Part shown: positions 35,979 through 37,552 of the stretch, in pieces
Layout: every line of letters starts with the position of its first letter
How positions within the stretch are numbered: the stretch's first letter is position 1
Source: Pseudomonas syringae
Lineage (GTDB): Bacteria > Pseudomonadota > Gammaproteobacteria > Pseudomonadales > Pseudomonadaceae
Assembly: GCF_000737245.1 (NCBI RefSeq)
Contig: NZ_JPQU01000067.1
Location: forward strand, 1 to 64,000
Length of the DNA: 64,000 nucleotides
Direction: 5' to 3'
The notes under the pieces: model-generated
What the model saw: only the letters and a program-made list of their open reading frames with translations
Told to the model about the DNA's origin: nothing
Databases searched by the model: none
Position numbers and translations under genes: made by a program

Positions 35979-35990
35979 TACAGGTGGCCC

Positions 35991-36082
35991 CTGTGGGAGC
36001 GGTGCTTGCCCGCGATAAGGGCACTGAGGTTTTACAGGTAGATCACCTAAACCTTATCGCGGGCAAGCACCGCTCCCACAGG
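35991..36082. repeat. REP pair, GGGAGCGGTGCTTGCCCGCGA family
   Basis: CTGTGGGAGCGGTGCTTGCC and its complement flank about 40 bp, with an outer ATAAGG/CCTTAT extension. Located downstream of the GNAT gene and upstream of the RluF-like gene. Confidence 0.9.
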
Positions 36083-36204
36083 TCACCACCGACCTGCTCT
36101 TATAGGCAACCACACTGATTACCATCCATTTTCAATGTTGCCGCGATTAACCGGGCGGGCACGGGTACAATGTCGGCCTTTCTCTCAAGTAACGGCTGTT
36201 TGTC

Positions 36205-36915
36205 ATGTCAGAACCCATCCGCCTCTCCAAACGCCTTATCGAGCTGACCGGGTGCTCCCGTCGCGAGGCCGAGCTGTTCATCGAAGGCGGCTGGGTCACG
36301 GTAGACGGCCAGGTCATCGACGAGCCTCAGTTCAAGGTCGACACCCAAGCGGTGGTCCTCGATCCACAGGCCAAGGCCGATACGCCGGAGCCGGTGACGA
36401 TCATCTTTCACAAACCTGCGGACCTCAGCGAAGCCGATGCCCTGGCATTGATTACACCGGCGACCCTCTCTGAGGAGCACAGCTTCGGTAAGCGGCCGCT
36501 CAAAGGCCACTTCTTGCGCCTTGAACCCATCTCGACCCTGCAGGCTAATGCCAGCGGCCTGATGGTATTCAGCCAGGACTGGAAAATCCTCCGCAAGCTG
36601 ACTGACGATCGCAGCAAGATCGAACAGGAATACATTGTGGAGATTTCCGGAGACATGGTCGCTCACGGCCTCAATCGCCTGAACCACGGCCTGACCTACA
36701 AGGGCAAGGAATTGCCTGCCGTCAAAGCCAGCTGGCAGAACGAAAACCGCCTGCGCTTTGCCATGAAAAACCCGCAACCCGGGATCATCGCCCAGCTCTG
36801 CGAAGCCGTGGGCCTGAAGATCGTGGCCGTGCGCCGCATCCGCATTGGCGGGGTCTCCATGGGCAAGATGCCAGAAGGCCAATGGCGCTACATGACTTCC
36901 AAAGAGAAGTTCTAA
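36205..36915 (+). CDS. RluF/RsuA-type pseudouridine synthase homologue lacking the catalytic Asp
   Basis: A 236-residue protein with an N-terminal S4 RNA-binding domain (about 1-50: LSKRLIELTGCSRREAELFI, then GGWVTVDGQVI) and an RsuA/RluF-like pseudouridine synthase fold. In active members the motif is GRLDxxTxGLL. Here it reads PISTLQANASGLMVF, with Gln113 in place of the catalytic Asp, and the preceding GR is ST. The fold continues with the conserved VGLKIVAVRRIRIGGV. It may bind RNA without catalysis, or another residue may substitute. The ATG at 36205 follows CTGTTTGTC. It heads a plus-strand run with DUF1456 and trmO. Confidence 0.82.
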   Translation: MSEPIRLSKRLIELTGCSRREAELFIEGGWVTVDGQVIDEPQFKVDTQAVVLDPQAKADTPEPVTIIFHKPADLSEADALALITPATLSEEHSFGKRPLKGHFLRLEPISTLQANASGLMVFSQDWKILRKLTDDRSKIEQEYIVEISGDMVAHGLNRLNHGLTYKGKELPAVKASWQNENRLRFAMKNPQPGIIAQLCEAVGLKIVAVRRIRIGGVSMGKMPEGQWRYMTSKEKF

Positions 36916-36978: not shown

Positions 36979-37440
36979 ATGATGAACAACGACGTACTGC
37001 GCAGCGTGCGCTACATGCTCGATATCAGCGACGGCAAGATTGTCGACATCACCAAACTCGGTGGTCTTGAAATCACCAAAGCCGACGTGATTGCTTTCAC
37101 CAAGAAAGAAGACGAAGAAGGCTATCTGAACTGCAGCGATGAAATCATGGCGCATTTCCTCGACGGCCTGGTGATCTTCAAGCGTGGCAAGGACGATAGC
37201 CGCGCCCCGCAGCCGATTGAGCTGCCGGTCACCAACAACACGGTACTGAAAAAGCTGCGTGTGGCCTTCGAGCTGAAAGAAGAAGACATGCACGCCATCC
37301 TCAAGTCGGTGGAGTTTCCGGTCTCCAAGCCCGAGCTGAGCGCGCTGTTCCGCAAGTTCGGCCACAGCAACTACCGCACCTGCGGCGATCAACTGCTGCG
37401 CAATTTCCTCAAAGGCCTGACCTTGCGGGTTCGCGGCTAG
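36979..37440 (+). CDS. DUF1456 (YehS-like) protein
   Basis: A 153-residue protein with two copies of the roughly 60-residue DUF1456 helical unit: NDVLRSVRYMLDISDGKIVD and NNTVLKKLRVAFELKEEDM, each ending in a FLDGL/FLKGL-type motif. No biochemical role is known to me. ATG-ATG start; the second ATG (36982) is equally possible. It lies 63 bp after the RluF-like gene on the same strand. Confidence 0.85.
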   Translation: MMNNDVLRSVRYMLDISDGKIVDITKLGGLEITKADVIAFTKKEDEEGYLNCSDEIMAHFLDGLVIFKRGKDDSRAPQPIELPVTNNTVLKKLRVAFELKEEDMHAILKSVEFPVSKPELSALFRKFGHSNYRTCGDQLLRNFLKGLTLRVRG

Positions 37441-37466
37441 AAGACGCATCGACCCAGGGGCACGAT

Positions 37467-37552
37467 CTGTGGGAGCGAATTCATTCGCGAAAAGGCCAGT
37501 AAAGCCGACGCGGCAGGAAAACCGCCTTCGCGAATGAATTCGCTCCCACAGG
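37467..37552. repeat. REP pair, GGGAGCGAATTCATTCGCGA family
   Basis: CTGTGGGAGCGAATTCATTC and its complement flank about 38 bp. It lies directly between the DUF1456 gene and trmO, the 3' arm ending about 27 bp before the chosen trmO start. Confidence 0.9.

Follow-up and report, generated by a model that had tools for sequence, protein, structure and literature searches.

Among the closest described systems, RluF (NF007784, PDB 3dh3) is the synthase of Psi2604 in 23S rRNA and of Psi35 in tRNA-Tyr. Pseudouridine (Psi) synthases are described with one absolutely conserved, essential Asp (PMC7822408), and the Asp mutants of TruA, TruB, RluA and RsuA are given as inactive in another source (PMC3919597). 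In the latter, the catalytic residue of RluB is Asp110, and Arg108 displaces the target base, with the R108A mutant keeping 0.6% of wild-type activity; Tyr140 contributes as well (about 3% activity for Y140F) and Arg194 lies in motif III (PMC3919597).

The host of the window, that is, of the whole stretch of 64,000 nucleotides that was analysed, is a Pseudomonas close to P. viridiflava; protein identity to two isolates is 98–99%. The gene under study (36205..36915, + strand) starts with ATG, encodes 236 amino acids in the good frame that the earlier note had described, and probably specifies a non-catalytic RluF/RsuA-like protein. It is preceded by rimO and a GNAT gene on its 5' side and followed by a DUF1456 gene (36979..37440, +, directly downstream and on the same strand), trmO and then an FAD/NAD oxidoreductase gene on the opposite strand. 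The Pfam entry for DUF1456 gives no function. Two REP-like inverted repeats (gtgggagcg... / ...cgctcccac), read from the sequence at about 35985–36083 and 37465–37552, flank the pair, one before the gene under study and one after its DUF1456 neighbour.

Active-site residues and fold of the window protein

Residues were mapped with phmmer alignments to RluF (3dh3) and RluB (4lab), the chain numbering of 4lab being offset by 4 according to a hand count. The motif PISTLQANASGLM corresponds to residues 108–120 of the window protein in the ORF translation, and Gln113 aligns with the Asp of GRLD in both RluF and RluB, so that the replacement of the catalytic Asp by Gln, first pointed out in the earlier note, was reproduced. 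Beyond that note, two further functional residues were found to be missing. Thr111-Leu112-Gln113 (36535..36543, +) replaces Arg-Leu-Asp, with Thr111 at the place of the base-flipping RluB Arg108 and Gln113 at that of the catalytic Asp110, and Gly193 (36781..36783, +; aligned with the hand-counted offset) replaces the motif III Arg, RluB Arg194. Both arginines are therefore gone besides the Asp, and the window protein has none of the three residues by which the RsuA family is recognised (catalytic Asp, base-flipping Arg and motif III Arg). The aligned counterpart of RluB Tyr140, Tyr143 (36631..36633, +), is kept, as is the GL of motif II. At the motif III position, the two RsuA-type rows have His.

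The S4 RNA-binding domain is intact at residues 6–51 (36220..36357, +), with 30.4 bits against a cut-off of 22.8 for the Pfam model (PF01479), and was matched at E 0.01 by all 28 members of a 28-member alignment of the window protein's group. With PF00849 (PseudoU_synth_2), the window protein scored 23.7 bits (24.5 in the genome search), below the gathering cut-off of 26.8, and 15 of the 28 members were matched at E 0.01. The best-scoring equivalog was the NCBIfam RluF model NF007784, with 52.5 bits and a curated cut-off of 318. The pseudouridine synthase subfamily model TIGR00093 gave 57.7 bits against a curated cut-off of 109.3; three Asp-bearing or other members and the P. aeruginosa protein scored 49.2–70.1 with the same model. 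An AlphaFold2 model, predicted from an input alignment of 67 sequences (61 group and 6 canonical), had a mean pLDDT of 95 and a pTM of 0.87, and its best solved structural matches were RsuA, RluF, RluB and RluE, with Z values of 17.4–18.4 and a Foldseek value of 5.8e-17 against RsuA. The rmsd was 8.9–11.8 Å for matches spanning both domains, presumably because the domains are set differently, and 2.2–2.4 Å on 153–160 residues for the catalytic domain alone. The predicted structure is thus a Psi-synthase fold with an N-terminal S4 domain; the comparison with structural models that the earlier note had called for agrees with its view that S4 domain and fold are intact.

Seven other PF00849 proteins are encoded in the window genome, with RluD, RluC, RluA, the RluA family in general, RluB, RluE and RsuA as best matches, the RluA-, RluE- and RsuA-type proteins falling below their equivalog cut-offs. 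None of these seven had RluF as its best match.

The degenerate group and its canonical relatives

Conservation was evaluated first among close relatives. Gln113 was present in all of the 110 nearest loci (80 distinct proteins), a set picked for closeness that includes the window's own locus and some genomes twice. An orthologue-level match (1e-69 or better) was found in 294 of 298 sampled same-genus genomes, and of the 119 genomes in the family sample, 90 matched at 1e-10, or 84 of 119 once 6 matches judged to be paralogue-level were set aside. The median dN/dS of the window gene against its relatives was 0.098 (50 pairs, Nei-Gojobori), the values for distant pairs being rough since dS reached 1.4; its neighbours gave 0.054 for rimO (42 pairs), 0.088 for trmO (50), 0.13 for the DUF1456 gene (50) and 0.151 for the GNAT gene (43). 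The 294 genomes include one in 4 contigs (G155) whose copy (L132) is split over two frames but has its usual neighbours rimO, GNAT and DUF1456. In the four others (G133, G156, G272 and G283) only paralogue-level matches were found; with G156 and G272 listed as 99–100% complete, the gene may be one that can be lost, or it may fall in assembly gaps. Although the split copy and the four genomes lacking an orthologue-level match would suit a sequencing error or a decaying gene, this explanation has practically nothing left to recommend it, given Gln in 110 of 110 loci, a dN/dS of about 0.10 and only two short proteins in the whole group of 184 described below, and for the window gene it is ruled out by conservation.

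More divergent members carry Glu, Leu or Asp at site 113. The P. aeruginosa orthologue, 52.5% identical and annotated as 'rRNA pseudouridine synthase', has Asp at this site, but its Arg111 is replaced by Ala and its Arg193 by Gly; its tag is presumably PA1110, a guess from the numbering of roeA. In a P. aeruginosa record labelled as an 847 kb conjugative plasmid (NZ_CP131792.1, L292), the orthologue lies beside hcuABC and roeA, which we take to be chromosomal genes; the locus may reflect an assembly error or a piece of the chromosome captured by the plasmid.

The wider family was collected with the 28-member alignment in searches of 194 order, 229 class and 299 phylum genomes, plus 369 class genomes in a further search; the genome sets overlap, and the E-value limits differed between searches. 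A match was obtained for 286 of 291 loci, corresponding to 246 distinct proteins, or 245 after exclusion of L003, which has no letter at the motif. Two classes were defined by residue 111, with 184 proteins lacking Arg111 (182 full-length and 2 short pieces, namely the split copy and one cut piece) and 61 carrying it. The latter, canonical class has Asp113 and Gly190 in 61 of 61 members and Arg193 and Arg196 in 59 of 61 each. Among the 184, site 113 is Gln in 121, Glu in 45, Asp in 8, Pro in 7, Leu in 2 and Gly in 1, whereas site 193 is Gly in 173, Lys in 1, a gap in 1, another residue in 9 and Arg in none. Gly190 is found in none of the 184 (1 gap), Arg196 in 24 and the Tyr at site 143 in 168. 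The losses are therefore group-wide, and the idea that Gln113 is a one-off substitution was rejected. To the question, raised in the earlier note, of whether Gln113 is fixed among orthologues, the answer is yes for the nearest relatives and no for the wider group, where 121 of 184 have Gln. The members nearest to intermediates are the 8 with Asp113 and the 24 with Arg196. The Asp-bearing members, i.e., these 8 and the P. aeruginosa protein, lack both arginines (111 and 193), and since they keep the Asp, their activity is formally possible. The earlier note had named orthologues with Asp, together with a sequencing error, as the outcome that would speak against it; the first part was found, in proteins that have lost both arginines, and the second was not.

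In a tree built from all columns, 62 group and 48 canonical representatives were split by a branch with an SH-aLRT of 100, the group standing on a long branch (0.86) beside canonical proteins with GLAPAGRLDIDS and G(K/R)KRQIRRMCE. Because the class definition relies on an active-site residue, the tree was rebuilt without the active-site columns (residues 106–120, 139–145 and 187–199), and the same 62 still fell together on a single side of a branch with an SH-aLRT of 99.4. The two trees are quick ones, calculated without bootstraps, and have long branches in two group rows (L287 and L271). Over the 62 group rows, 14 changes of state were counted at site 113, and 6 changes when only Asp and not-Asp were distinguished. 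All group members among the loci retrieved from the phylum sample belong to the window's class, where the group was found in Pseudomonadaceae and several other families, and the loci from other classes (L281–L286 and L288) are canonical. Two canonical sisters, L243 and L293 (Eleftheria terrae), carry, ahead of the S4 domain, a long N-terminal extension of low complexity, rich in Arg, Gly and Asp in L243 and in Pro, Ala and Arg in L293.

A degenerate and a canonical sister copy occur together in seven genomes (G698, G814, G963, G1078, G995, G1013 and G985), and a degenerate copy accompanies an RluF-type copy in two (G948 and G496), the RluF type being judged there by motif and not by family scan. 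As judged from these sequences, the degenerate protein is a paralogue and not a replacement.

The loss of the counterparts of RluB Arg108, Asp110 and Arg194, the 0.6% activity left in RluB when Arg108 alone is replaced (PMC3919597) and the sharing of these losses by a group under purifying selection argue strongly that the group is inactive as a synthase, in line with the non-catalytic protein proposed in the earlier note. Tyr143, the motif II GL and conserved acidic residues elsewhere count against inactivity. A still-active synthase, with other residues in place of the Asp and the two arginines, could draw on these and on the kept fold, on Glu or Asp at site 113 in 53 of the 184 members, and on Glu140 and Glu142, invariant in the 182 full-length members, with Asp135 and Glu146 nearly so. 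Nevertheless, it is very improbable, as site 113 is also Gln, Pro, Leu or Gly, conservation of acidic residues within 106–125 nowhere exceeds 81% (Asp125), not one of the 184 has Arg193, Arg111 is absent by class definition and RluB R108A alone is nearly dead (PMC3919597). A salt bridge between sites 113 and 196 (Glu with Arg, Gln with Ala) was also considered and dropped, because the pairs are mixed (E-R 15, E-A 12, E-E 8, Q-A 99, Q-E 5, Q-R 3 and others) and the motif III Arg maps to site 193, not 196.

Moved constraint, neighbouring genes and the putative role

The fewest changes per site were counted for group and canonical proteins on the tree without active-site columns, the group median being 14 per site. 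Sites 111 (17 in the group vs. 0 in canonical proteins), 113 (14 vs. 0), 190 (17 vs. 0) and 196 (29 vs. 1) are freer in the group, at values equal to or above its median, and sites 193 (9 vs. 1) and 143 (9 vs. 0) were less free. Eight sites are tighter in the group, namely His102 (1 vs. 17), Glu140 (0 vs. 11), Lys174 (5 vs. 23), Ser176 (1 vs. 28), Gln178 (3 vs. 17), Glu180 (4 vs. 29), Arg184 (0 vs. 12) and Lys188 (2 vs. 18), the conservation of Glu140 being new in the group. A separate analysis of these sites pointed the same way. Among the sites to which constraint moved from the cleft, the hairpin KxSWQxExxLRFxxK is notable; it corresponds to residues 174–188 (KASWQNENRLRFAMK; 36724..36768, +), which form two strands in the model. 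Catalytic sites set free while other sites tightened are the signature of a changed job, not of decay. The same eight residues, with few changes in the group and many in canonical relatives, might be a new active or ligand site in a cleft turned to other chemistry, but they lie partly on a strand pair for which contact with RNA or protein is just as possible a role, and we consider this explanation unlikely.

The DUF1456 gene adjoins the gene on the same strand in 108 of the 182 group members with enough downstream DNA to be checked. By residue at site 113, the adjacency was found for Gln in 104 of 119, Leu in 2 of 2, Pro in 2 of 7, Glu in 0 of 45, Asp in 0 of 8 and Gly in 0 of 1. In tree rows, DUF1456 is next door in 15 of 27 without Asp or Glu at the site vs. 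0 of 35 with either. A link between the DUF1456 partner and the loss of the acidic residue was nevertheless rejected, since the independent pairs number 2 when only well-supported branches are used and 7 when all are, which puts significance out of reach. The association follows the tree and is inseparable from ancestry, so ancestry alone may explain it. As neighbours, rimO, GNAT and trmO are almost confined to same-genus loci (rimO is also beside L223, from a same-class genome), and neighbour clustering revealed no further gene common to the whole group. This neighbourhood, together with the weakly basic character of the window protein, could suggest that the protein does not itself bind RNA and instead assists or regulates, without catalysis, another protein, be it a ribosomal protein, the DUF1456 protein or a canonical Psi synthase. 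Such a role has a small chance of being correct, since the S4 domain is kept in all 28 scanned members, the DUF1456 adjacency is confined to part of the tree (0 of 54 with Glu, Asp or Gly at site 113) and ancestry is confounded with it.

The reading that we favour, and regard as likely on sequence grounds, is that of a Psi-synthase paralogue without catalytic activity, retained for RNA binding and possibly serving in ribosome assembly. It would be a paralogue of an RluF-like enzyme, its catalytic cleft having been taken apart a single time, apparently early on in the window's class, after which purifying selection would have kept the protein for a job without the isomerase reaction. The S4 domain and Psi-synthase cradle would together bind a structured RNA stem-loop (rRNA or tRNA), the uridine being neither flipped nor isomerised, and the protein may act as a chaperone of RNA, as a placeholder or as an assembly factor; residue 113 would be a bystander, varying between lineages. 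The kept S4 domain and predicted fold suggest, with moderate confidence, that proteins of the window type bind structured RNA. The estimated charge is about +2 for the window protein, with −4.5 for its S4 part, and the medians are +4.0 for the group (n = 61), +13.4 for the sister proteins (n = 9) and +6.8 for RluF-like proteins (n = 15); a window protein less basic than its canonical sister weakens the case for RNA binding. By analogy, a putative role in ribosome assembly or as an RNA chaperone might be envisaged. That the whole clade is a dedicated non-catalytic RNA chaperone or assembly factor, holding an RNA stem-loop in a remodelled cradle (KxSWQxExxLRFxxK), is conceivable and more doubtful than the favoured reading.

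Comparison with known systems

The clade is well conserved and keeps fold and S4 domain; neither functional arginine is left in it, and most sampled members are without the Asp as well. No description of an inactive or pseudo Psi-synthase group was found in a search of open-access literature, with few subscription papers and preprints among it, which is weak evidence of novelty. As the P. aeruginosa member is annotated as an 'rRNA pseudouridine synthase', the number of Psi synthases counted in a genome may be an overestimate. For P. syringae and P. aeruginosa, Psi maps have been published (PMC13236023), and the prediction of no Psi at RluF sites may therefore be checkable against existing data. 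The clade is also a natural test for a catalysis-independent role of Psi synthases in RNA folding or ribosome assembly. According to PMC11194073, catalytically inactive E. coli RlmB and the RlmL domain of RlmKL still help 50S assembly, whereas in the same strain RluB and RluF gave no rescue of assembly and RluC needed its catalytic Asp. RlmB and RlmL are a precedent for a dead rRNA-modification enzyme promoting assembly, but they are methyltransferases and natively active.

RluB, from which the functional residues were mapped, and RsuA resemble the window protein in fold and architecture; unlike it, they carry GRLD, and each of them is best matched by another gene of the window genome. RluF likewise combines an S4 and a catalytic domain in the same fold, whereas the window protein has neither GRLD nor the motif III Arg nor the basic residue of KxY, and scores far below the RluF cut-off. 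The nearest canonical rows in the tree are RluF-like proteins with GLAPAGRLDIDS ... G(K/R)KRQIRRMCE (e.g., L236, L241, L243, L244, L261–L263 and L272–L280). They have in common with the group a homologous part of similar length and a WR...F end, but they carry the full catalytic motif and, in seven genomes, stand beside a degenerate copy.
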